A stretch of 46,325 nt of DNA from a virus. The translations under genes and the position numbers were made by a program. The notes beneath the pieces are model-generated. The model searched no databases, was not told where the DNA came from, and saw only the letters and a program-made list of their open reading frames with translations. The stretch spans positions 1 to 46,325 of the IMG/VR virus record IMGVR_UViG_3300022745_000050. One strand, written 5' to 3'. Below, one piece after another: positions 141 to 42,769 of this stretch (within the stretch, counting starts at the first letter, position 1; each line of letters begins with the position of its first letter).

Positions 141-382
141 TTCAGCATCCCCATAATCACAGCGGCATACATGCCGAGAACAAAACACCCCATCGCTACC
201 ACCGCGAAAGAGCCGGACCGCAGCCCGTTCCAGAGCCAGCGGCGGTATTGCGTCCAGAGCGATAGTCGGTAGTGCAAAATGGGTTGGTTGGCGTCTATCC
301 AGCCCGCCCCGAGCACGTCGCGGGCGGTGTTGGGGGCGTCCTTGGGCGGGACGCGGTTGGCCATTGTCATGTCGGTCCTCAT
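137..382 (-). CDS. Small membrane protein
   Basis: 81 residues. The N-terminal half is soluble and polar. The C-terminal ~25 residues, ending VAMGCFVLGMYAAVIMGMLK, form one clear membrane segment, so the protein is probably C-tail anchored in the inner membrane. The start ATG overlaps the stop of the upstream gene (GCATGAGG at 382), and its own stop overlaps the next start, which indicates translational coupling within a leftward operon. I do not recognise the family. A superinfection-exclusion or other membrane-level host-takeover role is possible but is only inference. Confidence 0.6.
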   Translation of the reverse strand: MRTDMTMANRVPPKDAPNTARDVLGAGWIDANQPILHYRLSLWTQYRRWLWNGLRSGSFAVVAMGCFVLGMYAAVIMGMLK

Positions 383-606
383 GCGAAAATGTCGGTTTCG
401 ATTGTCGGTCGTGTCGGTTCGGGGAAGGCCAGCGCCAAGGCCGCTGCGGCGGTCGGCGCCGTGAATGTGTAGGTTTTGGTGTCTGGCGTGATGATCTCCA
501 GCGTCACAGAACCTCCAGGCTCCATTGCGTAGAGGTTCATCGCCAGATCCGGGTTCTCCGCGCGCAGTGTGTCGAAACGTTCAGGCGAAGATGCTGTCAG
601 GGTCAT
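379..606 (-). CDS. Hypothetical protein with C-terminal DIFA tail
   Basis: 75 residues with no recognised domain. The middle is beta-like, with many V, T and I residues. It begins 26 bases inside the preceding gene and overlaps the next start by four bases. It ends TDIFA, one of twelve proteins in this window that share the short tail x-[DGS]-[ILV]-F-[GAED]. The overlaps on both sides support it as a real, coupled gene. Function unknown. Confidence 0.6.
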   Translation of the reverse strand: MTLTASSPERFDTLRAENPDLAMNLYAMEPGGSVTLEIITPDTKTYTFTAPTAAAALALAFPEPTRPTIETDIFA

Positions 607-829
607 CGACCGTCCCCTTCAACACGTTGGGGCGATCTGCCTCCGAGAGCGACAGATAGTGCCGCAAAACGAGCACAACGAGCCGGTTTCGTGTCACGCC
701 GATCAGTTTTGCCGCTTCGTCCAGATGCGCGGGCAGCGCGACACCGACCCGGAAAGACAGCGGTTTGGACGTTTTCGACGGCGGCTTTTTGCGTTTTGGC
801 TTTGCCGGCGATTTCAGATTGGTCGGCAT
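581..829 (-). CDS. Ribbon-helix-helix-like regulator, first gene of the leftward operon
   Basis: 82 residues. A lysine/proline-rich N-terminus of about 24 residues precedes LSFRVGVALPAHLDEAAKLI and a following helix (VTRNRLVVLVLRHYL). That strand-helix-helix arrangement resembles CopG/Arc ribbon-helix-helix DNA-binding proteins. It is the first gene after the divergent promoter region at 830-974, which suits an autoregulator. It ends DSIFA, the shared short C-terminal tail. The fold assignment rests on pattern only; the DNA target is unknown. Confidence 0.55.
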   Translation of the reverse strand: MPTNLKSPAKPKRKKPPSKTSKPLSFRVGVALPAHLDEAAKLIGVTRNRLVVLVLRHYLSLSEADRPNVLKGTVDDPDSIFA

Positions 830-859
830 CTGGCCCCCTTTGTTGGTCCGTTTTCAGGG

Positions 860-888
860 GTGTATTACAAAGTGTGTTACACTGTCAA
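860..888 (-). promoter_or_regulatory. Putative leftward promoter with a perfect -35
   Basis: On the minus strand TTGACA (888-883) is followed by weak -10 candidates around 867-859 (TAATAC or TACACC). It lies 31-59 bases upstream of the start at 829. The region holds two near-direct repeats, GTGTATTACA (860-869) and GTGTGTTACA (872-881); the second recurs in other promoter regions. The -10 is not convincing on its own. Confidence 0.4.
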
Positions 889-903
889 CCGACAAATCAG
901 ACA
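883..903. promoter_or_regulatory. Recurrent 21-base operator-like site
   Basis: It matches TGTC-N4-GACAAATCAGACA exactly. Four further strong matches lie at 11518-11538, 28966-28986 (reversed), 31310-31330 and 42782-42802, all at gene starts or intergenic gaps. Here it overlaps the leftward -35 and sits 15 bases upstream of the rightward -35 at 918. It is a candidate binding site for the phage repressor or the ribbon-helix-helix protein. Confidence 0.5.
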
Positions 904-917
904 CGTCAGACGGTTTG

Positions 918-946
918 TTGCGCGTGTATGGTTTGTAGGGTATAGT
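918..946 (+). promoter_or_regulatory. Sigma-70-type promoter of the tail fibre gene
   Basis: TTGCGC (918-923), a 17-base spacer and TATAGT (941-946). The predicted start is near 953, about 22 bases before the ATG at 975. The -35 form TTGCxx with a 17-base spacer recurs in the promoters at 28954-28982 and 37220-37248, which suggests a common host sigma-factor preference. Confidence 0.65.
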
Positions 947-974
947 CAGGCAAACCCGCGCAGGGAGCGTCGCC

Positions 975-2171: not shown

Positions 2172-2174
2172 ATT

Positions 2175-4403
2175 TTACTCCTTCCTGTACCGCTTGCCGC
2201 GCCACCCGCCCGCGGTGAGCGGCATACCCTCGGCCCATGCCGGCAACTCGCAGATCAGCTTCTCAAACTCGGCCAAGTCACCAAAGCCGCGCGGCACTTC
2301 GGAGATGATTTCGTCGTAGACGTGGCCGATGATCGGGTAGCCGGCGCGCTCGGCCTTCCACATGCCGTTTACCAGCAAGTCGCGGGCGGTGGCCTGCGTC
2401 CAGTTCTCCGCAATCAGCCCGCCGTACAGTTTCGACCGGGTGAACTTCTTGGTCGTCGAGTTCACTGACATGATTGAGATGCCCGGCGACGTGTCGCCTT
2501 GGATCCGAACCTCGCCCTTCAACTCCAGCCGCTCGGCCTGTTCCCGGTCCATGACTTCGGCGTCGGACCACTCATTCGGCCCGATCTTCACTTCGACCCA
2601 CACTTGCGCGGACAGACGCGGCGCCCCGTAGGCCAAACAGCGGCCAGAGGGCAGCCGCAGCCACAGGAACCCATGTCGGACGATGAACTGGCAGCGCGCC
2701 GCAGACGTGACGGTGCCGGGGTTCTCCACGGCATCGCGCACGGCGGCTTCGCTCAAAGTCCAGGACTTCGCGATGGCCGGGTTGGTGGCCCGCCAGCCCA
2801 CTTTGATGATCTCGCACGCAATCCACGCTTCCCGCGATAGCACGTCGGTGTGGCTCTTGCCGCGCTTCAGATTGGCGGCGTAGCGCTTGACCGCCTTCTC
2901 ACGCCGCTCTTCATCTGCGGCCTGCCACACGGGCTCGTATAGGCCGTGCAGGTCCACGCCGTAGTTCCGCGACATCGAATAGAAGGCCGACACTCCACCC
3001 CCGAAACCTAACGCCAATTCGGAAACCTTGCCGACCGACTGCCGCAGCGGGTGTTTCTTCGTGATCACGTCCGTCGACATGTTCATGATGCCAGCCGCCG
3101 TGCGCCGGTACATGTCGGGCAAAGACGGGTCTGCGATGATCTCGTGCAGCGCTTTGACTTTCCAGTCCTCGCCCGCCATCCACGCGATGACAGCGCCCTC
3201 GATGCCGCTGTAGTCGGCCTGCACCAGTTCCTTGCCCGGCCCGGCCCAAACGAAGCCCCGTATCGCGTCGCTGATCAGGTGCAGCGGACGGCCAAGCGTC
3301 TCGCCGTACAACGCCTTCAGCGCCTCCGGGTCCTCGGTCTTGAACGTGTTAAATAACACGTCGGCGCGCGGGTGCGCCTCGTCGAACTCACGGCGCGGGC
3401 GGGGCATGTTGGCGAAGTTCACGCCAGTGCTGCTCCAGCGCCCCGTAGACGCGCCGTGATAGAGGAACGTGCCTCTCACCCTCCCGTCAGCGCTGGCGCG
3501 GTCCAGCATGGCCTCCAGCTTCGCCACGGAGGTCTTTGCGGCCTCCTGGCGTATCAGGAGCGCGGCGCGGACGTGGCCGGGCAGATCAGTGGTGTCCAAC
3601 AGATCGGCGATTTCGGCCTTGGCCGCGGACGTCAGTTCTACGCCCTGCATCTGCACCCACTCCACCAGCTTGCCGGGCTGCGAACAGGCCGTCACGAAGC
3701 CCCCGGTGGCCGCCCGCATCTCGCGGTCCAGCATCGCCTTGGACTTGTCGGCCAGCCGGATAGCCGCCACGGCAGAGGCCCGGTCGATCCGCACGCCGCG
3801 CCGGTTGATCTTCTGGTCCAACACCCACACGGCTTGTTCCGCATCGGACAGGGGCACCATGCGCTTGGCGGCGGCCTCTTCTGTCTCCACATCGCGGACG
3901 CAGTAAGCGCAGAATAGTTTCCAGTCCTCGGGGTGATCGGCCGGTTCGTTCCAGTACAGTCCGGGCGGCTCGTCCTTCTTGGGCTTGCGCGGGATCGAGA
4001 ACTTGCGGATCAGCCGCATACCGTCTTTGTCCTTCTGGACGTCCAGCCCGAGGGCCGCGCCGAGGTCGCCAAGGGACCGGGGGAGCGACATGGCGGCAGC
4101 GGCGGCAGCGGTGTCGACGAACTGATCGAGACGCGGGCGGGGCCAACCGAAGCGATCGGCCAGAAGGTCGAAGCCGAGGGCCTCAAAGGCGGCGTTGTGG
4201 GCGTGTATCCTGGCCCCTGCCGAGATTGCGGCGCAGAGGTCATCCGGGCGTGGCGTGTCGTAGGTCCACAGCCGGATCGGCGCGTCGTCGATCCGATAGG
4301 CGGCCATCAGGACAGTTGTCTCGGGATGCTCAAAGTAGACGCTGGCCCCGCAGGTCTTCAGATCGACCGGGCTGCGCGTCTCGAAGTCGACTGACACCTT
4401 CAT
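2175..4403 (-). CDS. Family A DNA polymerase with 3'-5' exonuclease domain
   Basis: 742 residues. The N-terminal DEDD exonuclease is seen as DFETR (D6, E8), AHNAAFE (around 68-74) and YCVRDVE (D171). The polymerase domain shows TGRWSS (around 320-325), motif A ADYSGIE (D397), motif B RQSVGK and LGFGGG (around 454-470), and motif C at 694-699. Motif C reads HVYDEI, with tyrosine where most family members have the His of HDE. The ATG overlaps the stop of the methyltransferase upstream (GGATGA), so it is the last gene of the early operon. It replicates the phage DNA together with the SSB and the prim-pol helicase. The protein lacks the C-terminal DxFG tail of its neighbours. Confidence 0.93.
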   Translation of the reverse strand: MKVSVDFETRSPVDLKTCGASVYFEHPETTVLMAAYRIDDAPIRLWTYDTPRPDDLCAAISAGARIHAHNAAFEALGFDLLADRFGWPRPRLDQFVDTAAAAAAMSLPRSLGDLGAALGLDVQKDKDGMRLIRKFSIPRKPKKDEPPGLYWNEPADHPEDWKLFCAYCVRDVETEEAAAKRMVPLSDAEQAVWVLDQKINRRGVRIDRASAVAAIRLADKSKAMLDREMRAATGGFVTACSQPGKLVEWVQMQGVELTSAAKAEIADLLDTTDLPGHVRAALLIRQEAAKTSVAKLEAMLDRASADGRVRGTFLYHGASTGRWSSTGVNFANMPRPRREFDEAHPRADVLFNTFKTEDPEALKALYGETLGRPLHLISDAIRGFVWAGPGKELVQADYSGIEGAVIAWMAGEDWKVKALHEIIADPSLPDMYRRTAAGIMNMSTDVITKKHPLRQSVGKVSELALGFGGGVSAFYSMSRNYGVDLHGLYEPVWQAADEERREKAVKRYAANLKRGKSHTDVLSREAWIACEIIKVGWRATNPAIAKSWTLSEAAVRDAVENPGTVTSAARCQFIVRHGFLWLRLPSGRCLAYGAPRLSAQVWVEVKIGPNEWSDAEVMDREQAERLELKGEVRIQGDTSPGISIMSVNSTTKKFTRSKLYGGLIAENWTQATARDLLVNGMWKAERAGYPIIGHVYDEIISEVPRGFGDLAEFEKLICELPAWAEGMPLTAGGWRGKRYRKE

Positions 4404-5134
4404 CCGAATACTCCTTCGTCAGCCATCAGGTAGGACAGCCCGAGCCGCTTTTTGGCGACTTCAAAATAAACGTCATCGCGCTCAATGCCGATGAATTTGC
4501 GCCCGGTGTTCTGGCAAGCGACGCCGGTTGTGCCGCTACCCATGCAGTTATCCAGAACGGTGTCGCCTTCGTTGGTGTACGTTCTTATCAGATACTCCAT
4601 CAGGGCGACGGGCTTTTGCGTGGGGTGAACGGTTGAGCCCTCGGAGGCGATGTTCAACACGTCGCGCGGCCAATTTGTGAACTCCTGAATGTAGTCTTTG
4701 CCTCCGCGGGTCCCGTAATTTTCGCTGCTATGCTTAACCTTGTCGTGCCGGGTCTTGTTGATCCGCTCGACGCCCTGCGCATTGTACGGCCCTGCGGACG
4801 CTCCAAAAACAAGCACCTGTTCGTGCTGCCTGACGGGCATCCGCTTGGCGTTTAAGACGCCTGTGATCTTCGTTTTGACCCACGTCCACTCGTAGGAGAA
4901 CCCCTTCGCGTTGCTCATAACTAAGGCGCTACTGAAGGGCTGCGTGGCAGTCAGAACGACCGCGCCCCGACACAAGCGCCGGTACTGCGCCCACAGCGGG
5001 GCAAACGGAATAACCGAGTCCCACTTGTTTTGCGTAGTGCCGTAGGGCAGATCGGACAGCACGAGGTCAACTGATCCGGCTTCCAGCGTTGCCATCACCT
5101 CTAAGCAGTCTCCTTTGAATATCTGGGCGTTCAT
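4400..5134 (-). CDS. DNA (adenine or N4-cytosine) methyltransferase
   Basis: 244 residues. The catalytic SDLPYGTT (27-34) is a DPPY-type motif. The AdoMet-binding segment VLDNCMGSGTTG is near the C-terminus and is followed by FIGIERD. This order (catalytic motif first) fits the beta-class N4/N6 amino-methyltransferases. The start MNAQIFKGDCLEVM is the usual N-terminus of the family and overlaps the stop of the zinc-ribbon gene (ATGA). It likely protects phage DNA from restriction. The C-terminus reads DEGVFG, the shared tail; its last codon also overlaps the polymerase start. Confidence 0.88.
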   Translation of the reverse strand: MNAQIFKGDCLEVMATLEAGSVDLVLSDLPYGTTQNKWDSVIPFAPLWAQYRRLCRGAVVLTATQPFSSALVMSNAKGFSYEWTWVKTKITGVLNAKRMPVRQHEQVLVFGASAGPYNAQGVERINKTRHDKVKHSSENYGTRGGKDYIQEFTNWPRDVLNIASEGSTVHPTQKPVALMEYLIRTYTNEGDTVLDNCMGSGTTGVACQNTGRKFIGIERDDVYFEVAKKRLGLSYLMADEGVFG

Positions 5135-5328: not shown

Positions 5329-5816
5329 GACAGAACTCCCCCGTCGAAGGATTGCGCCAGCCAGCCGAGTGAGCGCGCTTGCCAAAGCGCCGTCTGACCT
5401 AGAAGACCTTTGGCGAACAACGCCGTTCCGTTGCCGGGCTGTTGCCCGGTCGAACCGTCCGGCCGTTCGAATTTCACCTTTGGCGCGACGAACAAGATGC
5501 TGTCGGCCATAGGGGCGAAGTGCTGGAACCACGGGGCGCTTGTTCGGTCCGGTACGAGCGCGACGCCGTTTGCGTGCGCCATGAACTTCTCCAGCCACGG
5601 CACGAGCCCGTTCCGGCCGCCGAAAGGAGGGTTCATCCAAACGAATCCCTGCCACTCGGTTTCCAGCGATCTTGCCGACAAATAGGCCCGGCAAGGGCAG
5701 TTCGTGGCCCTTGGGGGGCTGGCCACGTCCAGATCGAAGACGAAACCCATAGCGTCAAAAATATATTTTGGGGTGTACCATTCGTCGGATCTGCCGATTG
5801 TCTCCCATACACTCAT
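5325..5816 (-). CDS. Dam-like N6-adenine methyltransferase (phage Dam family)
   Basis: 163 residues. It opens with DEWYTPKYIFDAM (11-23) and carries VWMNPPFGG (N62-P63-P64-F65), the catalytic motif of the phage DNA N-6-adenine methyltransferase family (DUF/Pfam Dam). Its length is normal for that family. The ATG overlaps the stop of the cytosine methyltransferase (GGATGA). Together with its neighbours it makes a three-enzyme modification cluster, presumably against host restriction. Target sequence unknown. Confidence 0.85.
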   Translation of the reverse strand: MSVWETIGRSDEWYTPKYIFDAMGFVFDLDVASPPRATNCPCRAYLSARSLETEWQGFVWMNPPFGGRNGLVPWLEKFMAHANGVALVPDRTSAPWFQHFAPMADSILFVAPKVKFERPDGSTGQQPGNGTALFAKGLLGQTALWQARSLGWLAQSFDGGVLS

Positions 5817-6832
5817 CCAAATATCCCCGTGTCGGTCGCCAAGTCAGACGCTTCCGTCAGCCGAAAACGTCGGATTGCGTCGGTTTCGAGATAGGTTTCG
5901 ATGAAGGCTTGCGCGACGGGCGCAACGATTGCATTGCCGTAACCGCGCAGTCGTCCCACGCGCTCGGCAGCCCCATGAGCCAGCGGGAATGACTGGGGTT
6001 CAACTGGCCTCCACTTTCCATCCCGGCAGAAGAGCCAATCAGCATCTGACCAGAAGCTGTCAACCGGGCGGGGCTGTCCGGCACCCACGCTTGCACCTGC
6101 ATATTCAGGTCGGATAAGCTCACGCCCATTGACTGAGACCCCCGCGCCATGCTCTCCCGCTTTCGTTCCAGAAAGCGTTCCGGGGTTCCGTTGGCTTGCT
6201 GCGTCACTGGGGTCGGCCACCCCGTCATCTTCGCGTCCAGTGCCAAGCACGCGCAGCCGTGCTTCGTCCCGTGCAAGTCCTTCTGTGTCTCCGAACGGCC
6301 CGTCGCGTCGTGCGCTTGCGGAGTTGTCCAGCCTTTCTCCAACCCACCATAGTCTTTGCCTGATGTGGGGCGCGCCGAGGCCCGCAGCGCAGAGATCGAC
6401 CGCTGCGCTGGCGTAGCCCGATCCTTCCAAGTCAGCTTGTACAAGGTCGAGCCAACCGAGGCCGTCCTTGCTTGCAACCTGCTCCCCAAAAACGACTGGA
6501 GGGCGGCACTGGCCGATGAGGTAGTGGAACGCTGGCCAAAGGTGCCGCTCGTCAGCAAACCCCGCTCCTTTGCCTGCCGCGCTGAAAGGCTGGCAAGGGC
6601 AAGACCCGGTCCAGACGGGTCGGTCGTCTGGCCATCCGGCAAGTCTGAGGGCGTAGGACCAAACACCGATCCCGGCGAAGAAGTGGCATTGCGTGTAGCC
6701 TCTGAGGTCGTCGGGTCGGACACCTTCAATGCTCCTTTCGTCCACATCGCCGGGCGCGATGTGGCCCTGTTTGATCAGTTCGCGCAGCCATGCGGCAGCT
6801 TTAGGGTCGTATTCGTTGTAATACGCGGTCAT
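5813..6832 (-). CDS. C5-cytosine DNA methyltransferase
   Basis: 339 residues from the ATG at 6832, which overlaps the upstream stop (GAATGA). Motifs in order: I FAGIG (52-56), IV SCPCQPFS with catalytic Cys80, VI GEQV (around 116-119, where the usual form is ENV), VIII HIRQRL (around 156-161) and X GYGNAIVAP near residue 305. The middle variable region (DNSASARRDGPFGDTEGLAR) would hold target recognition. It ends TGIFG, the shared tail. Unusually, most of its length is also read in another frame by the gene at 5857-6723. Confidence 0.9.
   Translation of the reverse strand: MTAYYNEYDPKAAAWLRELIKQGHIAPGDVDERSIEGVRPDDLRGYTQCHFFAGIGVWSYALRLAGWPDDRPVWTGSCPCQPFSAAGKGAGFADERHLWPAFHYLIGQCRPPVVFGEQVASKDGLGWLDLVQADLEGSGYASAAVDLCAAGLGAPHIRQRLWWVGERLDNSASARRDGPFGDTEGLARDEARLRVLGTGREDDGVADPSDAASQRNPGTLSGTKAGEHGAGVSVNGRELIRPEYAGASVGAGQPRPVDSFWSDADWLFCRDGKWRPVEPQSFPLAHGAAERVGRLRGYGNAIVAPVAQAFIETYLETDAIRRFRLTEASDLATDTGIFG
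5857..6723 (-). CDS. Embedded gene in another frame of the cytosine methyltransferase
   Basis: 288 residues from a GTG at 6723 with AAAGGAG eight bases upstream, inside the methyltransferase gene. From memory, the product resembles a phage-encoded family of unknown function. Features include VSDPTTSE at the start, LASLSARQAKERG, GWTTPQAHD, TGWPTPVTQQ, and the conserved-looking end LNPSHSRWLMGLPSAWDDC. That last block is read from the same bases that give FPLAHGAAERVGRLRGYGNAIV in the methyltransferase. It ends QSDVFG, again the shared tail, although no start codon overlaps there. The ribosome site, the length and the tail all argue for real translation. Confidence 0.6.
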   Translation of the reverse strand: MSDPTTSEATRNATSSPGSVFGPTPSDLPDGQTTDPSGPGLALASLSARQAKERGLLTSGTFGQRSTTSSASAALQSFLGSRLQARTASVGSTLYKLTWKDRATPAQRSISALRASARPTSGKDYGGLEKGWTTPQAHDATGRSETQKDLHGTKHGCACLALDAKMTGWPTPVTQQANGTPERFLERKRESMARGSQSMGVSLSDLNMQVQAWVPDSPARLTASGQMLIGSSAGMESGGQLNPSHSRWLMGLPSAWDDCAVTAMQSLRPSRKPSSKPISKPTQSDVFG

Positions 6833-7059
6833 TCGAAGATGTCCCCTTGCTTGGGGTCGGGCGCGGCGGGGGCCGCCGCCACGTCCAGCGCACGCAACAG
6901 CGCTTCGACCGGGTCGGCCGCGATCTGCACGCCCCACCCGCTCTTGCCGACGCTACGGAAATTGCCCTGGTAGCCCGAAGGGCATTTCATGACGGAGAGA
7001 ATGTCCAACCGGCCCGATGTAGCGGCCTTGCGGATTTCATCTTCCAGATTTTTTGACAT
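6829..7059 (-). CDS. Hypothetical protein with clamp-motif-like tail QGDIFE
   Basis: 76 residues: a charged N-terminal helix (MSKNLEDEIRKAATSGRLD), a short central region (CPSGYQGNFRSVGKSGWGV), an Ala-rich helix and a Pro/Ala linker, then KQGDIFE. Q-G-D-I-F fits the bacterial beta-clamp-binding pattern Q-x-[DS]-[LIM]-F well. It overlaps both neighbours by a few bases in the early operon. No known family recognised. Confidence 0.65.
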   Translation of the reverse strand: MSKNLEDEIRKAATSGRLDILSVMKCPSGYQGNFRSVGKSGWGVQIAADPVEALLRALDVAAAPAAPDPKQGDIFE

Positions 7060-7204
7060 CGCCCACCCACACGTATTTGCGCACCGGATTGACGCGCGGT
7101 TTCGGTTCGGCTTTCGGCTTCACGGGTTTGGCCGGTTTGGGCGGCTGCTCAACGCTCGCCGCCCGTTTCGGCGCCCGGATGAAATGTTCCCCGCGCCAGT
7201 CCAT
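7037..7204 (-). CDS. Small Lys/Pro-rich protein
   Basis: 55 residues. The ATG shares its A with the stop of the GapR-like gene (TGATG), and the end overlaps the start of the next gene by about 23 bases. The middle, PPKPAKPVKPKAEPKPR, is a basic proline-rich linker between MDWRGEHFIRAP and KYVWVGDVKKSGR. Such composition suggests nucleic-acid or partner binding. Function unknown; support comes from the operon packing and sensible composition. Confidence 0.55.
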   Translation of the reverse strand: MDWRGEHFIRAPKRAASVEQPPKPAKPVKPKAEPKPRVNPVRKYVWVGDVKKSGR

Positions 7205-7479
7205 CAGCCAAACACGTCCATGCCGAGCGCCTGCCCGTAGACTTGCAGGATCGCGTTTTCTTCGTGTACTTCGTCGGGCTTGCGCTTGCGAACCGCGAGG
7301 ATCTTGCGCAGCACTTTGGTGTCGTAACCACGGCCCTTGGCCTCGGCCATGACTTCCTTGGTCTGCTCTGCGATGTCGTTCTTCTCAGCCGCCAGCGCCT
7401 CCAGACGCTCGACGAACTGCCGCAGTTCTTCGGCGGTCACTCTGTAAGTGTCGCCGCTGTTGTGTCCCTTGCCGGCCAT
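7204..7479 (-). CDS. gapR: GapR-like nucleoid protein (DUF2312/UPF0335)
   Basis: 91 residues. It matches the DUF2312 pattern: AEELRQFVERLEALAAEKND followed by IAEQTKEVMAEAKGRGYDTKVLRKILAVRKRKPDEVHEE. The family includes Caulobacter GapR, which binds overtwisted AT-rich DNA and supports replication. Start ATG with AGGAGG seven bases upstream. It ends GMDVFG, an extension beyond the usual GapR end that carries the shared tail. A 9-bp stem-loop lies just upstream (7505-7528). The phage copy may help replication or reshape the host nucleoid (inference). Confidence 0.85.
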   Translation of the reverse strand: MAGKGHNSGDTYRVTAEELRQFVERLEALAAEKNDIAEQTKEVMAEAKGRGYDTKVLRKILAVRKRKPDEVHEENAILQVYGQALGMDVFG

Positions 7480-7548: not shown

Positions 7549-8175
7549 TCAGCCAAAAAGGCCGCCCGCACCGGCACCGCCCTTGGTAGCGTCGGGCGCG
7601 TCGCCCTCGTCAGCGATCGTCTCCAGCCATTTGTCGGGGTCGGGCCCGCCACCGCCGCCCAAGACGTCAAAACCCGTCGCCAGCTTGGCCACCTGAACCA
7701 GAGAGATGCCGAAGGAGATGCCCTTGCCGTTCTTCGGGTTTTCCCACGTGAAGGGGTTCACCACGGCGTAGACCTGAGAGCCGCTGGTGCAGCCGTCAAG
7801 GTCCATGACGGGATTGCGCTTGGCGTCAAACACCTTCGGCTTGTAGTCCGAGCCCGACGACGCGCGGATGAAGCGGTGGCCAGCGTAACCGGCATGGCGT
7901 TCGCCCGACTTCTTGTTGATGCCCTGCGGGCCGTCGCCGTCTAGGAAGGGCGACTTGATGATGCCGTCCTTGATCCACTGGAGCGCTTTCTCGCCCCACT
8001 CTTCCTTGGCGACGGCCAACGCCGCGGCCTCAAGGGCGGCAATGCTGGTCGTCTTCGCGAACAGGATCGTGCAGCCGTATTTCACCTGGCCGCTGTCGTT
8101 CTCCCGCGCTTTGAACAGATCAACCGCGTAGCTGACGATCCCGAGCGGGGTCTTGATGTCTTCGCCTCGTGCCAC
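7549..8175 (-). CDS. Single-stranded DNA-binding protein, Enc34/DUF2815 type
   Basis: 208 residues from a GTG at 8175 with TAAGGAGG upstream. The sequence follows the DUF2815/Enc34_ssb pattern: TPLGIVSYAVDLFKAR, KYGCTILFAK, a central KSPFLDGD with GHRFIRASS, and YAVVNPFTWENPKNGKGISFGI. The C-terminus is an acidic then Gly-rich linker ending GGLFG. SSBs commonly end in a partner-binding tail, and T7 gp2.5 uses an acidic tail ending in Phe. It lies directly downstream of a RecB-like nuclease, a common pairing in phage replication or recombination modules. Confidence 0.85.
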   Translation of the reverse strand: MARGEDIKTPLGIVSYAVDLFKARENDSGQVKYGCTILFAKTTSIAALEAAALAVAKEEWGEKALQWIKDGIIKSPFLDGDGPQGINKKSGERHAGYAGHRFIRASSGSDYKPKVFDAKRNPVMDLDGCTSGSQVYAVVNPFTWENPKNGKGISFGISLVQVAKLATGFDVLGGGGGPDPDKWLETIADEGDAPDATKGGAGAGGLFG

Positions 8176-8186: not shown

Positions 8187-9446
8187 TTAGTTGAGAATAT
8201 CGAAGTGCTTCTCCACGCCCGACGCAACTGCCGGGCGGGTCGTCTTGGTTTCGCGCACCAAATTGGTGCCCGTTTTGGGCGTGCTGGACAGACCGGCAAC
8301 AACCGCCGCGTCGGCCTTGGCCTTCTTCAGAGCGTCACGCACCTGTTTGGGCGTCCGCAGTTTGCCGGGGTTGAGGTAGGCCGTTTCGGCCAGCCCCGCC
8401 GCCTTGACCGCCGCCAGAACCTCGGCGTCGGCCCCTTCGTTCCACTTCTCCCGGCCTTCCTTTTCGACCAAGATGTAGTTCGGGATGGCGACGCCGTTCT
8501 CGGCCTCGCGGTGAGCGTGGGCACGCACCGCGTTGATCCACTCCCCGATCATGTCCGCAGCGTCGAGAAGCTGCGCCAGCCGCTCCGGGGAATGCGTGTC
8601 GGGCGCGTTGGAGATGCGGGGCTGGTTGATGTCGTCGAACCAAACACCCGCCGCGTCCAACGCCTTCTGCTCCAGCGCCGGGCAGAAGCCCGCAGCCTTG
8701 CAGAACTTGCAGTGATCGCCGGCCTTCAGGTGGACTGCCGCCCACGCCGCCAACGGCGCTTTTTCTTGGTCCGCGAGGGCTTGGGCGCTGCGCTGCATCG
8801 CCTCCAGCAAGTCGGCAGTCCACTCCACCAGATCGGCGACGTGGAAGACTTCCGACCGGATGCGACCGTCTTTGTGGCCAGCGCGGGGCTGCACGATCGT
8901 CACCTTGACGGTTTCGACCAACAGGCCCGCATTGGCCAGCATGGCGCCCAAGGCGTAGGTCCGCAGTTGCGGGTTGCCCTTGGCTTCCACGACGACGCCG
9001 CGCCCGCCCTTCAGATCGACGACTTCGATCTGTCTGACGGATGGCGTGTAGATCACCGCGTCAGCCGTGCCCCCGGCTTGAAACGGCGGGTTGAGACTGG
9101 CCAGCGAAAAGCGCTGCTCGATCTGGAGCGTCGCCCCTGCGTAGCCTGCCACGCCGCGCACGTAGTCAATGTAGCGCTGCGCGGTGTCGGCCATCTCTTC
9201 GTCAACCTCAAAGGAGTGCTTCTTCCCCTTCTCCGTCGTGCCGATGTACTCGGCGGCGTCCTTGCCGTTGCGTAAGCAGCGCTCGGACAACTGGTGCGCG
9301 GCGGTGCCCCAATCCGCCGCTTCGCTGGTCGTCTCGGGGAGGTCCATCGTCAGGGCCAACGCACCGCCGCAATTCCAGTTCCGGTCGGTGGAACTGGCAC
9401 TCCAAGTGGCGTGCTCCCTCTCGGCGTGGGCGACCATATCAGCCAC
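8187..9446 (-). CDS. RecB/Cas4-like PD-(D/E)XK nuclease (DUF2800)
   Basis: 419 residues from a GTG at 9446 overlapping the upstream stop. The nuclease core reads EVVDLKGGRGVVVEAKGNPQL, giving D-x-K and a Q-x-x-x-Y motif (QLRTYALGA). Cysteines CGG near residue 26 and CKFCKAAGFCP near residue 256 are placed as in Cas4/AddB-type iron-sulphur nucleases. This matches the DUF2800 family commonly found beside DUF2815 SSBs. It is likely involved in phage recombination or DNA end processing. It ends KHFDILN, so it lacks the F-G/A tail. Confidence 0.82.
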   Translation of the reverse strand: MADMVAHAEREHATWSASSTDRNWNCGGALALTMDLPETTSEAADWGTAAHQLSERCLRNGKDAAEYIGTTEKGKKHSFEVDEEMADTAQRYIDYVRGVAGYAGATLQIEQRFSLASLNPPFQAGGTADAVIYTPSVRQIEVVDLKGGRGVVVEAKGNPQLRTYALGAMLANAGLLVETVKVTIVQPRAGHKDGRIRSEVFHVADLVEWTADLLEAMQRSAQALADQEKAPLAAWAAVHLKAGDHCKFCKAAGFCPALEQKALDAAGVWFDDINQPRISNAPDTHSPERLAQLLDAADMIGEWINAVRAHAHREAENGVAIPNYILVEKEGREKWNEGADAEVLAAVKAAGLAETAYLNPGKLRTPKQVRDALKKAKADAAVVAGLSSTPKTGTNLVRETKTTRPAVASGVEKHFDILN

Positions 9447-10122
9447 CCACGACGGTGCGCTTCAGCGGGTTGACCGAGACGGCCTTGCCCCACACGTCGA
9501 CGACCCTGGCCAACGTGTCTTGATCAGCGCCCGCCAGCAGCGACACTTTCCACGACGGCTGGCCCTCGGGCGGGGCGCCGAGCGCTTCAACGAAAATCTT
9601 CGGCCCGTCTTCCTGCGTGGCGGGCATCCCGAACTTCGCGACGTACTTGCCCATGACGGCCTTCACGTCGTCCACGGTCAGGGGCTTGACCGGGTCACGG
9701 TGCGCTTCAACCTCGGCGGCCTCGTCGGCGGCGTCTTGTTCGACCGTCTCGGCATCGTCGGGGTGCTTCGGGTCGACACGCTCTTCGCCGGTCGAGATGT
9801 TTGCGGGCGGCGCGGCCTTGTCGGCGGCTTCGTCCTCGGCGATCTCTTCCTTGGTGCGGCGCGCGCGGCCCGGTGCGGGCTTGCCGCGCTCACGCTTCGG
9901 CGCCTCGGAGGCTTCCGGTTCGGGTGCCGTGACGGGCGTGGGTTCGGGCTGCGGGGCGGGCGCCGGGCGCTCTGCCGCGGTCTCGCGCTTGGGCGCTTCT
10001 GGCAGCGCCAGCGTCACGCCGCGCGAAAACCCAATGGCCGACATGGCGTTCGCCAAGTAGGCCGCCGCACCGCCGCTGGAGATGTCCTCCTGCGGGACAG
10101 TCACTTCGATCTTCAGTGTCAT
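9439..10122 (-). CDS. Hypothetical protein with long charged linker
   Basis: 227 residues. The N-terminal ~45 residues form a small beta domain (MTLKIEVTVPQEDIS). About 100 residues of Pro/Glu/Ala/Lys-rich disordered sequence follow, then a C-terminal globular part (LTVDDVKAVMGKYVAKFGMPATQEDG to the end). The C-terminal segment resembles modules in phage replication accessory proteins, but I cannot name it. It overlaps both the helicase and nuclease genes by a few bases, so the three are probably translated together. Confidence 0.6.
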   Translation of the reverse strand: MTLKIEVTVPQEDISSGGAAAYLANAMSAIGFSRGVTLALPEAPKRETAAERPAPAPQPEPTPVTAPEPEASEAPKRERGKPAPGRARRTKEEIAEDEAADKAAPPANISTGEERVDPKHPDDAETVEQDAADEAAEVEAHRDPVKPLTVDDVKAVMGKYVAKFGMPATQEDGPKIFVEALGAPPEGQPSWKVSLLAGADQDTLARVVDVWGKAVSVNPLKRTVVGG

Positions 10123-11471
10123 CTGGTCAAGACCTCTCGTATTGCGGACATCTTCCGCGTTAAAATCTCCCCGACAGCCTCGTCGATGGAGCCTTCCAGA
10201 ACGGCCACGCGCACGATCGGCTGTCGCGTCTGGCCGTGGTTCGTGATCCTCTTGGACATCTGCGCGCCGTCCTTCGGCGTCATCGACATCTCAACGAAGA
10301 TCAGAAGTGCAGCGGAGGACAGGTCGATGGCCTCGCCCGCCGCTTGGATCTGCCCGAGAAACACTCGGCATTTCGGGTCGTGCAGGAAGCGTTGCTCCGC
10401 GGCCCCGCGCTCGCTGGCCGGCGTGGAGCCGTCGATGCCGACGACGCCAAAGGCGGCCAATGCTTCGTGCAGCGCGTCGCCGACGTCCTTGTGCCAGTAG
10501 GCCAGCACGACCTTGTCAAGCCCGCCGTCAAACTCATCCTTGACGAAAGCCGCGACTGCCTCGGCCTTGAGCGTGCCGGTCAGGCGACGCAGCGGCCCAA
10601 GGTGCATCTCCAGCTTGCGCGTGTCGCCCGCTTCGGCGGCGTCGAGGATGGCCTCGCCGTCGCTGTCCTTTTCGATCTGCCGCCGCATCGCCGCTGTGAC
10701 GGCCAAGGGCAGCGTCTCGTAGACGGGTTCCCGGATGCCCACGTCTTGTTGCGTCCGCAGCAGCATGAAGCTACCAAGGCGCTCGCGCAGTTCATCCAGG
10801 TTCCGCCCCCCGATCACGACCGGAATACGATTGAAGTTAGAAATCTTCTTCATTTTGACGATGCAATAACGGTGGAGGAACGTCTGGTACTTGGTGACGT
10901 TCGGCCAGCCGCGCGTATCATCGGCCTCCAGCCGTTCGGGGCAGAGCGCCCGCATCATCGGGTACAGGTCGTTCGGGGCGTTCGGAATTGGCGTGCCCGT
11001 CAGCGCCCACGTCCCCGCCGCCCGGCTGATCAGCGACGAAGACAGGGCCAACGTGGCGCCATCCTCCATCGGCACGCCGTAGACGGCCTGCGTGCGCTTG
11101 GCGTCAAAATTCTTGGCGTTGTGGGCTTCGTCCAGAATGATCCGGTCCCACTTGCGCTTGAGCAATTCAACCCGAAGCGCCGCATTGGTCATCGCGGGCC
11201 AACCAACGATGACCGCTTCGCCCGTGACGGGCTTGGCGTCGGTCAGCACTTGGACTTTGCGCTTGAAGGGGGACCACTGGCCGAACGCTCGGCCCCACAC
11301 CGGGCGGCCCGATGCGGTGGTGACGACGAGCACGTTTTCTTCGAGGTTATAGTCTGCGGCCATGATGGCCGTCCCGGTCTTCCCGACGCGCGGGGCGTCT
11401 GCCAGTAGGGCGTTCTGGTTGTTGGCCAGAAAGATCGCTCCGCTGATCTGTGTGGGGAAGGGTGTCAGCAA
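10119..11471 (-). CDS. SNF2-family helicase
   Basis: 450 residues starting with TTG at 11471 (TAGGAA upstream; no better start is in frame). Motif I is DAPRVGKT (25-32) and motif II is LDEAH (113-117). Motif III is ALTGTPIPN, followed by the SNF2-typical NDLYPMMRAL. Motif V/VI reads QAAGEAIDLSSA and QMSKRITNHGQTRQP. The last motif has KRI.. in place of the usual R-x-G-R spacing. It is a DNA translocase for phage replication, recombination or repair. A recurrent operator-like site lies 47-67 bases upstream. Confidence 0.87.
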   Translation of the reverse strand: MLTPFPTQISGAIFLANNQNALLADAPRVGKTGTAIMAADYNLEENVLVVTTASGRPVWGRAFGQWSPFKRKVQVLTDAKPVTGEAVIVGWPAMTNAALRVELLKRKWDRIILDEAHNAKNFDAKRTQAVYGVPMEDGATLALSSSLISRAAGTWALTGTPIPNAPNDLYPMMRALCPERLEADDTRGWPNVTKYQTFLHRYCIVKMKKISNFNRIPVVIGGRNLDELRERLGSFMLLRTQQDVGIREPVYETLPLAVTAAMRRQIEKDSDGEAILDAAEAGDTRKLEMHLGPLRRLTGTLKAEAVAAFVKDEFDGGLDKVVLAYWHKDVGDALHEALAAFGVVGIDGSTPASERGAAEQRFLHDPKCRVFLGQIQAAGEAIDLSSAALLIFVEMSMTPKDGAQMSKRITNHGQTRQPIVRVAVLEGSIDEAVGEILTRKMSAIREVLTR

Positions 11472-11550: not shown

Positions 11551-11910
11551 TCAAGGCAGTTTGACGCCGTTAACTTCGGCCCCCGTGAGGGTGTAGCCCA
11601 CCATGTCGACGAAGCTGTCGGCGTGATCGGGCGTCTCACAAAGACGCGCTTCCTTCATCAGCCGCATCAAGGGCGACACGTCTTTCGCCGTGATGTCGAT
11701 GTTGCGCCCGGTGTTCTTGAAGTAGGCGTCCCAAAATCGCGCGATGCGGGCGAAGTTGTCCTCGGGCTTGCCGTAGGCCGCGCGCCGCGCCCCGGAGACG
11801 ATACGCTTGGCCTCGTCGGCGATCTGCGTTTTGATGTCGGGCATATCGCGCCAGATCGTCGGGTCATTCACAATGGCAGCAAACGCTGCGGCCTCTTCCT
11901 CGTCAGTCAC
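11551..11910 (-). CDS. Phage protein of DUF6378 type
   Basis: 119 residues from a GTG at 11910 that overlaps the RusA stop (GAGTGA). The pattern RRAAYGKPEDNFARIARFWDAY, then LMRLMKEARLCETPDHADSFVDMVGYTLTG, is that of the widespread phage family DUF6378 (YGxxxxNFxRIAxxW and K-x-AR...HxDSxxDxxGY). Its function is unknown. It is usually found in replication or nucleotide-metabolism regions, as here. Confidence 0.75.
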   Translation of the reverse strand: MTDEEEAAAFAAIVNDPTIWRDMPDIKTQIADEAKRIVSGARRAAYGKPEDNFARIARFWDAYFKNTGRNIDITAKDVSPLMRLMKEARLCETPDHADSFVDMVGYTLTGAEVNGVKLP

Positions 11911-12329
11911 TCAAAAATCCCTCCAGTGATGATCGGCGAAACCCGGATCCACATGCCGGGCTTGTCGCCGTAGATTTTGCGGACCCTTCCGTCGACGATC
12001 TGGCCGTCGTCCACCCACACGACCAGATTGCAGGCATCGACGACCTTGCCGAAATTATCCCAATCGGGCTTTTTCGTCGGCAGCAGCACGCCGCTGCGGG
12101 CGTCGGCTTGGCGCTTCTTCGGCCACGAGGCGGCGATCGGCACCACGACAGTCATTTCCAAGGCCAGCGGCCCCTCCAGCGGCGGGCGGTCGCCCATCAC
12201 TTGCTCCGCTGCGTATTTCAGAACCGCCTCAAAGTTTCGCGTCTTTTCCGGCGTGTAGGTGTTGCCGTCCTTGGAGAACCGCGGGCGGCCTTTCGCCACG
12301 GGCTGACCAAGGACGACGATCTCGATCAT
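11907..12329 (-). CDS. rusA: RusA-like Holliday junction resolvase
   Basis: 140 residues from the ATG at 12329, which overlaps the upstream stop (GTATGA). It starts MIEIVVLGQPVAKGRPRFS and contains KPDWDNFGKVVDACN and VWVDDGQIVD, which hold the conserved acidic cluster of RusA endonucleases. It resolves branched DNA during replication or before packaging. It ends TGGIFE, the shared tail. A longer upstream reading in this frame would overlap the previous gene and is rejected. Confidence 0.87.
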   Translation of the reverse strand: MIEIVVLGQPVAKGRPRFSKDGNTYTPEKTRNFEAVLKYAAEQVMGDRPPLEGPLALEMTVVVPIAASWPKKRQADARSGVLLPTKKPDWDNFGKVVDACNLVVWVDDGQIVDGRVRKIYGDKPGMWIRVSPIITGGIFE

Positions 12330-12559
12330 ACGGCGGCCGCGTCGGCCGGTTGCGGCAGCGGGACCGTGAGCATTGCGGTCTGCGCCAGCTTGCGGAGCCG
12401 GGCGTTGTCTGTCATCTCGGCCAACAGGTCCAGATCGTCCATGAGTTCGAGGCAGTCCATCAGGGTCGCCCCGTTTTGGATTTTGGCCCGCAACTCGACC
12501 CCCGCGCGCCAATAGGAGCGTACCTCAAACTCAAGCAAAGATGTCGGTTTCTTCTGCAT
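12326..12559 (-). CDS. Hypothetical helical protein
   Basis: 77 residues from the ATG at 12559 (MQKKPTSLLEFEVRSYWRAG), overlapping the upstream gene by 29 bases and the RusA start by four. It is mostly helical and leucine-rich (MDCLELMDDLDLLAEMTDNARLRKLAQTAM). No family recognised. It is the second gene of the early operon; a regulatory or host-interaction role is possible. Confidence 0.6.
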   Translation of the reverse strand: MQKKPTSLLEFEVRSYWRAGVELRAKIQNGATLMDCLELMDDLDLLAEMTDNARLRKLAQTAMLTVPLPQPADAAAV

Positions 12560-12779
12560 TGTCGTCCTCCAAATATGCGGACAGCCGGATCGGCGCGCCG
12601 CTCTCAAACTCCAGGGACACCAGCAAGAGCGCGAACCAGTCCGAAGACACGGAACCCCGCTCAAACCACTTACGCGCAGTATCTCGGGGCGGGACTTTCG
12701 GGCAGTGCTTGCCGAGCAACCCGACGACGCCGTCAGCGTCACCAAAGTTTTCAATCAGAAAGCGAGTTGCGTCAAACAT
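12531..12779 (-). CDS. Cro-like small HTH protein, first gene of the early operon
   Basis: 82 residues. GDADGVVGLLGKHCPKVPPRDTARKWFERGSVSSDWFALLL looks like a short helix-turn-helix of the kind seen in Cro-like lambdoid regulators, with the recognition region PRDTARKWFERGSV. It is the first leftward gene and is divergent from the CI-like repressor at 12930, the classic place for Cro. It ends EETDIFA, the shared tail. The HTH call is moderate; the positional argument is stronger. Confidence 0.6.
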   Translation of the reverse strand: MFDATRFLIENFGDADGVVGLLGKHCPKVPPRDTARKWFERGSVSSDWFALLLVSLEFESGAPIRLSAYLEDDNAEETDIFA

Positions 12780-36648: not shown

Positions 36649-37083
36649 TCAGTCGAAAACGTCAGGACCTGGACCGACTGGCGTTGCTTTTGCGGCCGCC
36701 ATTGCCTCCAGCTTGGCGATTGCTTCCGCCAATTCCCCCGGTGACATCTCATGTGGTTCCTTGCCTTGCATTGCATCGGATATGCCGAACCCGGCCTTAT
36801 CCATCAATACCTTGGCCGCCTGTACTCTGGCCCCCGCCGGCGCTTTCGGATTGCCTGTTATCTCCAGCAAACAGTTTAGGGCGGCCGGGACACCTTCCCC
36901 GACTAGCCTTTCCATCTGGATCCGCAGCACTTCCTCTCTGACGGCCGGCCGCGAAAGCGCCATGCTGGCGCCGGGCTGAGTTATTCCGGCCTTATGTGCC
37001 GCGAAGCCTTGTGAGCCTGTTTCCGCATACACCGCGGCAACGGTACGCTCAATCGGCGTTAAGCGTCCAGATTTTCGCGGCAT
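36649..37083 (-). CDS. terS: Terminase small subunit
   Basis: 144 residues: an HTH-like N-terminus (LTPIERTVAAVYAETGSQGF, AAHKAGITQPGASMALSRPA) and a long helical part (MERLVGEGVPAALNCLLEIT, APAGARVQAAKVLMDKAGFG, HEMSPGELAEAIAKLEAMAA). This matches small terminases of alphaproteobacterial phages as I recall them. It ends GPDVFD, the shared tail. The repeat GCATAACGCT occurs at its start (37080-37089) and upstream (37133-37142). Confidence 0.72.
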   Translation of the reverse strand: MPRKSGRLTPIERTVAAVYAETGSQGFAAHKAGITQPGASMALSRPAVREEVLRIQMERLVGEGVPAALNCLLEITGNPKAPAGARVQAAKVLMDKAGFGISDAMQGKEPHEMSPGELAEAIAKLEAMAAAKATPVGPGPDVFD

Positions 37084-38817: not shown

Positions 38818-38885
38818 TTGTCAACCAATGCGGCCGTCAACGCGCGGCCGTATTACTGGACAATCAAACAAGGAAGGAAAGCACT

Positions 38886-40200: not shown

Positions 40201-40253
40201 GCCCGCGCCGCCCGCGCGCCGGCCTGTGCGCCCGTTGCATTGGCCCCCGCCAA

Positions 40254-40373: not shown

Positions 40374-40435
40374 TGTGTTACAATTTGCTATTTGTTGGCC
40401 CCTGTCTTCGCCCATCGAGCCCACTTCCCCAAGCG

Positions 40436-40488
40436 GGAGGTGGCGGATGCAGGGGCGGCGGAAGTCGCCACCTCCCCCCGTAGGGGGG
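40436..40488. other. Two stem-loops in the putative origin
   Basis: GGAGGTGGCG (40436-40445) pairs with CGCCACCTCC (40466-40475), 20-base loop. CCCCCC-GTA-GGGGGG (40474-40488) forms a second, overlapping hairpin. Such foldbacks near iterons can be sites of initiation or priming. Confidence 0.65.
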
Positions 40489-40492
40489 CCGA

Positions 40493-40667
40493 ACTTCCGT
40501 ACTTCCGTAAATTTAACCTCCGTATAAGAAATCAATGACTTAGCCCCCAACTTCCGTACTTCCGTAGACTTCCGTGCCGAACTTCCGTAATCAATGAAAT
40601 CAATGACTTACAAGACCACTCTCGGGAACTTCCGTGAACTTCCGTACAACTTCCGTACAACTTCCGT
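40493..40667 (+). repeat. Ten copies of ACTTCCGT
   Basis: Exact copies start at 40493, 40501, 40550, 40558, 40568, 40581, 40628, 40638, 40649 and 40660, with a one-mismatch copy at 40516. Several are 8-11 bases apart, the last four in near-helical phase. A/T-rich spacers include ATCAATGACTTA twice. They run up to the stop of the prim-pol helicase gene (40676). Confidence 0.9.
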
Positions 40668-40675
40668 ACAACTTT

Positions 40676-42769
40676 CTAGCCGAAAACACCGTCGTTCAGG
40701 ACATCTTGTCCAGCCCCACCCACCACTTTGTAGCCCTTTATTTTCTTGTCGCTGTCCCGCACCGCCACGCAGATCAGGCCCGAACCTTCCCAAACCCGCA
40801 GCAAATCTTCGGCCTCGTCGCCCTTGAAACCGAACTCTTCCACCATGTGTTTCACCGCGCGGCGGTCCCCGCTCTGCGCCGCCTTTGACCAAGGCCGACC
40901 GCTTTCCCACGCCGCCCGCATTGCCCCCAAGACCTCGTCGGCCACCGCTGGAGTCAGTGCGACACCGGGGCCGAACCCCACCACTTCGCGCTCTGCCACG
41001 AGCGAGGACTGGCCATCGCCAAGCCCGACGACGTCGAACCGATAGGGCTCCGACCACCCATCCTCTGCGGCCTTCTGCTTTTCGCAAGTCAGCGTGCCGA
41101 TCGACGCGCCCTTCTTGCGCTCCAGCTTGAATACGAAATCGCCCGCCCCGAGCAGGACCGTCGAGCCCCGCATGTCGCCAGACTTGCCGGCGTGGTGGAC
41201 GCCCATGACGGCGCACTGGAACTCGTCCCGGACGCGGTCGCAGGCTTTGACGAAGAGCGTCATGTCCTTCTGCAAGTTTTCGTCCGCGCCCGGCATGGCG
41301 CGCGATACGGTGTCGACCACCACGAGGGCAGGCTTTACGCCCGCAGCGCGCACCGTGCGCAGCAGCTTCTCGATGTCGTCGGGCCGCATGAACTCGATGG
41401 ACTTCTCGATAATCAGAAAGCGATCTGTGAACTGGCCAATGCCCCGGCGCTTGTGCCAGGCTTTCGCCCGGTTGCCCATGTCGAAGGATCCTTCGGACGC
41501 GATGTATAGGACGTCCGCGTTCGGCTTGGCGTTGATCTTGTCGCCGTGCCAATCCGGCAACCCGTGGGCGATGGCGAGGGCCATGTCGATGGCGAGGAAC
41601 GATTTGCCTGCACCGGGCGTCGAGTACAGAAACCCGACCGAGACGTCCGGTACGTGCCGGTCGATCAGGAAAGACGGCGGGGGCCTGTTGATCACATCGG
41701 ACAGTTTGAGCAGGGGGTAGAGCGCGTCTGACTTCGCCTCGATCGCCTCCGCAGCCGCAAAGGGGCTTTCCTCTTGGGTTTGAAGTTCCTCGAACCAGAC
41801 CTCGGCTTGGGTGAAATCGCCGTTTGACAGGGCGTCAGCTTGGTCGAACAGCCACGACGCGCCGCGCTTGTACGGGGGCTTCATGCGGCACCAGTCAGCG
41901 GCCACGATGTCGGGGTCGTTCCCGCTTGGCCAACGGTCGCACCACTCGCTGAAGATGTCGAACGCCTCGCGCTCGTCAGGGACCGCCGCTTTGATCGCGT
42001 AGCCCATCGCCAGATAGCTTTCCCGTGTCGGGAAGTGGTCTGATGTGTTGGGCGTCGCGGCGACAGCTTTGCGGATCAGTGCCGGGTCGCCCCGTAGGGT
42101 TTGCTGATCGACGTCGGACGCAGCGCCCTCTTTGACGATCGGGCGTGCCGCGGGGAGCGCTTGGCGCAGCCGCTCCAGAAGGGGGCCGACCTGATCGTGC
42201 GGCAAGAGAGGGAGTTGATCAAATGGGGGGAGCGGCCGGTCCCACGCGTAGGGCTTGCCTGTCTTCGGGTGGACGCCGAGAGCGACGAACTGCCGGCCAT
42301 GCGACAGGACCTCCACGCGCTCGGGGATGCCCTTGGCATTGGGTTCACCGAAGTCGACGCGCTGATACGGCACGTCGCCATCGGTGCGGAAGACGTAGCC
42401 CTGCTTTGGCGCTTGCCCGGTCCTGACGGGGGCATGGCCATCGCCGTCGACGATCGGCCGGATGATCGCGGCAAGGTCGGGGTGCATCGTGTCGGCGTCG
42501 ATGAGCAGCACCTTGCCCGTCTTGATGCCGACGCCGGCGCCCATCGCGTGCCAGCGCTCGAAATCACGTTCGTCTGCGACGTGGTTGATCCAGTCGAAGG
42601 AACCCCATTTGCCGCTCGGGAAGCGGATGCCGGGGGTCTTGCCCCGGCCGTCCTGGTGTGTTCCGACGCGCTTGTACAGGGTGGAGTTCGGGCTGATCTC
42701 CGCGTTGGGCGGTATGATCGGCACCAGATCGGTGTAGCCGAGTGCGGCCAGTTTCTTGAAGGGGTTCAT
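40676..42769 (-). CDS. Prim-pol primase / RecA-like helicase replication protein
   Basis: 697 residues. The N-terminal ~200 residues are a bifunctional primase-polymerase domain (GVGIKTGKVLLIDADTMHPD with D91 and D93). Residues ~225-315 match PriCT_2 (LIRKAVAATPNTSDHFPTRE, FDIFSEWCDRWPSGND, WLFDQA). The C-terminal motor has Walker A STPGAGKS (383-390) and Walker B PALVVVDTVSR. It likely initiates replication at the adjacent repeat region. The C-terminus is NDGVFG, the shared tail, here not forced by any overlapping start. Confidence 0.88.
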   Translation of the reverse strand: MNPFKKLAALGYTDLVPIIPPNAEISPNSTLYKRVGTHQDGRGKTPGIRFPSGKWGSFDWINHVADERDFERWHAMGAGVGIKTGKVLLIDADTMHPDLAAIIRPIVDGDGHAPVRTGQAPKQGYVFRTDGDVPYQRVDFGEPNAKGIPERVEVLSHGRQFVALGVHPKTGKPYAWDRPLPPFDQLPLLPHDQVGPLLERLRQALPAARPIVKEGAASDVDQQTLRGDPALIRKAVAATPNTSDHFPTRESYLAMGYAIKAAVPDEREAFDIFSEWCDRWPSGNDPDIVAADWCRMKPPYKRGASWLFDQADALSNGDFTQAEVWFEELQTQEESPFAAAEAIEAKSDALYPLLKLSDVINRPPPSFLIDRHVPDVSVGFLYSTPGAGKSFLAIDMALAIAHGLPDWHGDKINAKPNADVLYIASEGSFDMGNRAKAWHKRRGIGQFTDRFLIIEKSIEFMRPDDIEKLLRTVRAAGVKPALVVVDTVSRAMPGADENLQKDMTLFVKACDRVRDEFQCAVMGVHHAGKSGDMRGSTVLLGAGDFVFKLERKKGASIGTLTCEKQKAAEDGWSEPYRFDVVGLGDGQSSLVAEREVVGFGPGVALTPAVADEVLGAMRAAWESGRPWSKAAQSGDRRAVKHMVEEFGFKGDEAEDLLRVWEGSGLICVAVRDSDKKIKGYKVVGGAGQDVLNDGVFG

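Follow-up and report, generated by a model that had tools for sequence, protein, structure and literature searches.

The window studied here, meaning the whole stretch of DNA that was analysed, comprises positions 1 to 46,325 (46 kb) of IMG/VR virus record IMGVR_UViG_3300022745_000050. The DNA belongs to a phage that, judged by its polymerase, stands closest among named phages to Rhizobium phage RHph_N65, with 60.7% identity. Our subject is a short C-terminal tail, a hydrophobic residue and Phe followed by one last residue, which the original prediction described on twelve proteins. All 12 tails were confirmed as read, on the minus strand. For counting, a tail was defined as a C-terminus [ILVM]F-x in the window and in annotated genomes, and as [ILVAM]F-x among homologues. 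The tailed proteins are the following.

379..606, minus strand: g379, 75 amino acids (aa), tail ETDIFA; 26 of 28 homologues end in [ILVAM]F-x.
581..829, minus strand: 82-aa protein, tail PDSIFA; weak repressor/CopG-type PHROG matches (E 0.006 and 0.013).
4400..5134, minus strand (maximal open reading frame, ORF, to 5188): N6/N4 DNA methylase (PF01555), tail DEGVFG.
5813..6832, minus strand: C5 DNA methylase, dcm (PF00145), tail DTGIFG.
5857..6747, minus strand: alternate-frame ORF inside dcm, matching PHROG 1008, tail QSDVFG.
6829..7059, minus strand: g6829, 76 aa, tail QGDIFE; 16 of 17 homologues end in [ILVAM]F-x.
7204..7479, minus strand: GapR (PF10073), tail GMDVFG.
7549..8175, minus strand: single-stranded DNA-binding protein (SSB) of Enc34/T7 type (PF10991), tail AGGLFG; also a receptor candidate.
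11907..12329, minus strand: RusA resolvase (PF05866), tail TGGIFE.
12531..12779, minus strand: 82-aa protein, tail ETDIFA.
36649..37083, minus strand: terminase small subunit, TerS (PHROG 2538, E 9e-5), tail GPDVFD.
40676..42769, minus strand: PrimPol/AAA helicase-primase, tail NDGVFG; 17 of 18 homologues tailed.

Using a simple gene caller of our own, 62 genes were called in the window, and 11 of them had [ILVM]F-x ends, whereas at 30 alternative offsets from the end the pattern occurred 0.43 times on average (Poisson P ~2e-12). This confirmed that the shared tail is real and stronger than first stated. The twelfth tail (5857) is the end of the alternate-frame ORF within dcm, which was dropped by the gene caller. 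The caller placed the likely starts of RusA, the N6/N4 methylase and dcm at 12329, 5134 and 6832, respectively. The tail is not a product of our own gene calls, because it is also found in the depositors' annotation of RHph_N65 (14 of 69 coding sequences) and of EBPR siphovirus 2 (11 of 76), a few of which may be chance. The polymerase, helicase and structural proteins of the window lack the tail, as had been predicted, and its Dam methylase (5325-5816) ends in GGVLS, without a tail.

The dcm stretch is tailed in both reading frames, because the alternate-frame ORF and the C5 methylase each end in a tail. The alternate-frame ORF is 56-59% identical in two relatives, where it ends in DIFG and NVFG. 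In one listing, 19 of 20 matches overlapped the window stretch 5857-6747 inside 5813-6832. Contigs and records are cited below by L and G numbers.

The tail was then counted across related phages. In the 22 contigs whose polymerase reaches 51% identity or more, the tail was present on 155 of the 854 called genes; these contigs were taken without regard to the tail and are a less selected sample, with the near-identical L040 and L042 both inside. Contigs with polymerases of about 45-47% identity (L233, L234, L239, L242) were still tailed, those at 42-43% (L235-L238) had 0-2 tails, and in 67 contigs at or below 40%, 25 of 1488 proteins had [ILV]F-x ends, where other offsets gave about 7. At least 7 of these 25 ends belonged to SSB, the tail of which is also present in several more distant relatives. 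On the stretch examined of L289, four of 18 genes are tailed and no polymerase is present. In a set of 40 contigs picked as members of the tailed clade, from which near-duplicates and some small fragments were removed and in which the close pairs L221/L232 and L118/L119 were left, 271 of 1411 proteins were tailed, about 33 times the 8.3 averaged over 30 other offsets. The tailed proteins of the clade formed 36 BLAST clusters, 17 of them single proteins. EBPR siphovirus 2 has the tails and the replication block in common with the other long genomes and none of their structural families. These counts show a tail that, at the level of sequence, is mostly restricted to one phage lineage.

A different end, acidic and then L-[IVL], was seen on SSB and several other proteins in the distant contigs L071, L057, L074 and L088. 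In the 67 tail-poor contigs, 38 of 1488 proteins had DL[IVLMWF] ends, while other offsets gave counts of 0-11. In L057, L071 and L088, the gene ahead of DUF2800 itself bears this acidic-L tail. Among relatives from Firmicutes (71 loci), F[LI][SDNEG] ends were found on 0, 1 and 2 proteins in 13, 51 and 7 loci, respectively.

The consensus of 180 distinct tails, preselected by [ILVA]F-x, was [GDSN][VIL]F[GADES]-COOH. Position -4 was G in 72, D in 55, S in 30 and N in 11 tails; position -3, within the preselection, was V in 90, I in 56, L in 30 and A in 4; and position -1 was G in 61, A in 38, D in 34, E in 21 and S in 18. Glu was enriched 3.5-fold at -5. Phe generally lies one residue off the C-terminus, with exceptions in SSB, which ends in LFGNQ in EBPR siphovirus 2 and in LFGL, LFGS or LFGE among L235, L237, L238 and L311. 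The last base and stop codon of 96 of 184 tail genes read ATGA or GTGA; since the other 88 do not, overlap of stop and start codons does not explain the tail.

Conservation among homologues told the same. In the clade set, [ILVAM]F-x ends were found on 27 of 27 RusA, 33 of 37 GapR, 12 of 13 TerS and 33 of 37 SSB proteins, and SSB had Phe at -2 in 36 of 37. In six families other than SSB, identity was 0.85-1.0 at the Phe and on average 0.10-0.17 over positions -8 to -25, an ungapped comparison in which linkers of unequal length score as different. GapR from other phages (79 of 80 loci) had no tail in 79 proteins, with 55-74% identity over the best segment. These mostly end in ALGM, with or without a few extra residues, whereas GapR of the clade is extended (ALGM-DVFG) or altered (ALGIFG). 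For RusA, 79 of the 80 loci returned were used (the tailed L125 was excluded) and 70 had a called RusA; tails were found in 5 of these 70, and all five contigs bear further tails, four of them having been met already in the clade. These comparisons show predicted C-termini conserved far beyond what an overlapping start codon forces, which upholds the earlier claim that the tail extends beyond the residues so forced.

The annotated carriers in the clade mostly act on DNA: SSB, PrimPol, RusA, GapR, TerS, methyltransferases of four families (N6/N4, C5, Dam and MT-A70) and nucleases (HNH and an Rv2179c-like exonuclease family). Of 20 tailed proteins scanned, 13 had no known family, and the shared structural families had few tail-type ends. 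This cargo bears on the idea that a host protease or quality-control factor reads the tail as a signal for stability or degradation. C-terminal degrons exist, and the near-exact C-terminal position and the mostly small or acidic last residue would fit one. A signal of this kind is nevertheless very unlikely, given the DNA-acting carriers, the scarcity of matches in structural families and the frequency of terminal D or E (55 of 180 tails), which differs from ClpX C-degrons.

The residue before Phe varied by genome. Genomes with three tails or more, not counting SSB and GapR, numbered 37; in 32 of them one residue was dominant (found in at least 60% of tails): V in 15, I in 13, A in 3 and L in 1. 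We call these dialects. The all-I genomes include L221, L222, L232 and L233, and the all-V genomes EBPR siphovirus 2, L039, L041 and L223; L124 and G005 are all-A, L126 and L227, which are the same contig, also use A, and L042 uses L. Between non-homologous families within a genome, SSB excluded, the pre-Phe residue was concordant in 0.70 of 777 pairs, against 0.402 in 5000 permutations within families (standard deviation 0.017, maximum 0.48). Composition was considered as the cause and rejected, since neither genome G+C nor proteome composition predicts the residue. Agreement in unrelated proteins points to one shared receptor and is hard to account for otherwise.

Four genes of the A-dialect L126/L227 (g6829, GapR, PrimPol and the polymerase) are nearest to those of the V-dialect L039. 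The g6829 protein ends in PTSGAFD in L227 and in PTSGSVFE in L039; adaptation of incoming genes to the genome dialect is seen in this one gene only. A search of 397 genomes by order gave 7 polymerase matches at E 1e-60, too few to link dialect to host. In L048, three proteins end in what may be another dialect, DPF[ANS], and its SSB ends in ADVFG.

Functionless tails, produced by chance or shared ancestry of short C-termini, are hardly credible on these data. Because many of the cargo genes have homologues in other genomes, the counts are not independent; still, the 33-fold excess stands at one offset, is spread over 36 clusters and agrees across families. For the predicted tails, both the tests on homologues and those on dialects already contradict this explanation.

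We think it probable, though by no means strongly so, that the tail is a C-terminal tag docking many unrelated DNA-processing proteins at a single shared site, on the phage replisome or close to it. The variable linker with [GDSN][VIL]F[GADES]-COOH would act as a short docking tag and would tether SSB, primase-helicase, resolvase, GapR, methyltransferases, nucleases and TerS to the replisome, so that they act on DNA during copying. The partner of the tag is presumably a protein, and probably a single component. It may be encoded by the phage, within the replication block (SNF2-unk227-DUF2800-SSB-polymerase), and not be the host clamp, and the tags may have arisen by mimicry of the SSB tail. 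For the predicted common tag docking early proteins on one hub, conservation, the GapR contrast and dialect agreement give good indirect support.

Known docking tails offer models for such a tag. The acidic tails at the C-terminus of T7 gp4 dock on basic patches of gp5 (PMC12593628), and the tail of gp2.5 has been linked to binding of the polymerase and of the primase-helicase (PMC5686142). The present phages resemble T7 in having short C-terminal tails on SSB and helicase-primase (17 of 18 PrimPol proteins end in [ILVAM]F-x), a family A polymerase and an SSB of gp2.5/Enc34 type; that of the window matched PF10991 (E 2.8e-17), PHROG 112 (Gp2.5-like) and PDB 5odj (E 2e-6). They differ in carrying about a dozen tailed proteins per phage, in the strict [GDSN][VIL]F-x-COOH, in being only mildly acidic and in the genome-specific dialects. 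In T4, interchangeable hydrophobic/acidic C-termini of gp43, gp55 and gp33 bind the gp45 clamp, that of gp55 on a divergent linker (PMC2988020), and the DNA-modifying alpha-glucosyltransferase co-purifies with gp45 (PMC13216743). Interchangeable C-terminal epitopes on unrelated proteins are thus common to both systems; for T4 three such C-termini were named and the receptor is the phage clamp, whereas here no DnaN-type clamp was found in the records searched. The bacterial SSB C-terminus (SSB-Ct) is also a docking tip that contains Phe. Its tip is DDDIPF, an acidic segment ending in Pro-Phe, whereas the phage tail has G/D/S/N at -4, V/I/L at -3 and a residue after Phe. SSB-Ct is a hub for protein docking (PMC10164576), one carrier with many binders, whereas the phage tail has many carriers. 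By analogy, the tail would work like the C-terminal docking tails of T7 and T4, and replisome recruitment is the likeliest reading.

The original prediction compared the tail to a peptide binding the sliding clamp, and host DnaN might accordingly be where these motifs place the phage enzymes. The canonical beta-clamp motif is Q-x-[SD]-L-F, also QxxL(x)F. The tail is like it in having a hydrophobic residue and then Phe, often with D or S ahead; its [DGS]-[VIL]-F resembles motif positions 3-5, and Qx[DSG]hF matches 10 of the 180 distinct tails. The cargo also resembles the clients of the clamp. No DnaN-type clamp of phage origin was found (no PF00712 in the window and no PF02768 in any of six records, the window and G001-G005, with positive controls), so the host clamp would be free to serve; the gp45 family PF02916 gave no match in the six records, and its positive control gave none either. 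The clamp wording is not supported, however. Gln at -6, the first motif position, was found in 10 of 180 tails against 5.9 expected from background, without clear enrichment, and lies four residues ahead of Phe in only 2 of the 12 window tails. Val or Ala replaces Leu, up to whole alanine dialects (L124, L126/L227, G005), which is unexpected for this motif, as is a spacing between Phe and the C-terminus that is nearly constant at one residue. We consider docking on the host clamp unlikely.

For a receptor of the docking tag within the phage, four proteins of the window were considered besides SSB.

2175..4403, minus strand: family A DNA polymerase, receptor candidate, without a tail in all 92 listed, this one included.
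8187..9446, minus strand: DUF2800/PD-(D/E)XK protein, ending in the related HFDILN (Leu for Phe), receptor candidate or variant tail.
9439..10122, minus strand: unk227, core protein without a tail in the clade, receptor candidate.
10119..11471, minus strand: SNF2 helicase without a tail, receptor candidate; tailed in the distant L056.

The polymerase was named in the prediction as a possible hub, as T7 gp5 is for the tails of its partners. It is shared by the clade, none of the 92 listed is tailed, and the accompanying SSB is of T7/Enc34 type. The dialect, however, does not track polymerase similarity (Mantel r 0.05, p 0.27; Spearman 0.05, p 0.28), and sister polymerases 83% identical occur in V and A genomes. 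An insertion of the clade (residues 600-631 of the window PolA), present in many tailed members, was tried as the docking site and rejected, since the tailed L233, L239 and L242 lack it, L233 being tail-rich. When the L039 polymerase and the next tailed protein, read through the stop, were folded with AlphaFold, the tail was left unplaced at a predicted local distance difference test (pLDDT) score of about 29, which is uninformative rather than negative. The polymerase as the specific receptor is thus rather unlikely. The loci L012 26691-29828, L012 19594-22089 and L124 11347-14433 comprise polymerase genes about 300 residues longer than those of relatives and a C5 methylase with a LAGLIDADG match inside it, whose Hint and intein-splicing matches stay below their cut-offs.

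Among the tail-less families, the polymerase, SNF2 and unk227 occur in each of the eight long genomes; DUF2800 is present in seven, and in the eighth its gene is divided by the edge of the retrieved stretch, the protein being seen there otherwise. Protein distances correlated weakly with dialect distance for DUF2800 (Mantel r 0.28), SSB (0.27), SNF2 (0.25) and unk227 (0.21). Alignment columns suggestive of an association with dialect were seen in unk227, DUF2800 and SNF2, none of them decisive and all confounded by phylogeny. By BLAST, unk227 was found in 26 contigs and in none of the 67 tail-poor ones, and a profile added weak matches in L077 and L046. It was rejected as a strictly co-occurring hub, being present with little tailing in L235, L237, L238 and L311. 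No match to unk227 was found in Pfam (E 0.001) or PHROG (E 0.05). In its AlphaFold model the C-terminal domain is helical and confidently folded (residues 151-220 at pLDDT about 96), with no match in PDB at E 0.001 and a single viral match, F8TV50 (348 aa), presumably the homologue of EBPR siphovirus 2. The protein contains a conserved segment, RERGKPxPGxARRTKEEIAEDEAAD, and its helical C-terminal domain looks duplicated in some relatives. The receptor may also be a host protein, unk227 occurring in phages with little tailing too.

Several observations weigh against recruitment to one site at the replisome. A replisome role is a poorer fit for TerS and for the small tailed proteins of no assigned function. 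The pre-Phe residue is mixed in 5 of the 37 genomes, and the A-dialect L227 retains V in GapR (VGVFG) and PrimPol (QNVFQ). SSB holds Leu before Phe in 31 of 37 genomes regardless of dialect, and because of this its tail may use another site. L311, with a polymerase of 52% identity and an entire replication block, has one tail in 21 genes and a RusA without one; L235, L237 and L238 likewise have 1-2 tails each. The large terminase subunit TerL (r 0.35, 7 genomes) and the major capsid protein (r 0.44, 6 genomes) correlate with dialect as highly as the replication genes do, so the correlations may reflect overall relatedness. Rank tests, which covered up to 29 genomes, came out in favour of unk227, DUF2800 and SNF2, and of the tailed GapR and RusA equally. 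No gene tracks the dialect so as to mark itself as the receptor.

A broader proposal, to which we give a little less than an even chance, is a genome-wide C-terminal address code. The same terminal peptide would be placed on about a dozen unrelated proteins per genome, with most phages using their own dialect (IF, VF, AF or LF), driven by coevolution with one replisome receptor, possibly unk227; a distant polymerase lineage may run a parallel [DE]-L-[IV] code. No report of such a shared tail was found in the titles and abstract openings listed from the PubMed Central library searched, a scope outside which most subscription papers and preprints fall. If docking at the replisome is true, a single interchangeable terminal peptide would assemble a large set of enzymes on the phage replication machinery, and the dialects would make the receptor findable through simple peptide binding. 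The last five residues would then let roles be guessed for many uncharacterized small phage proteins, and the tail would provide a portable recruitment tag for phage replisomes.

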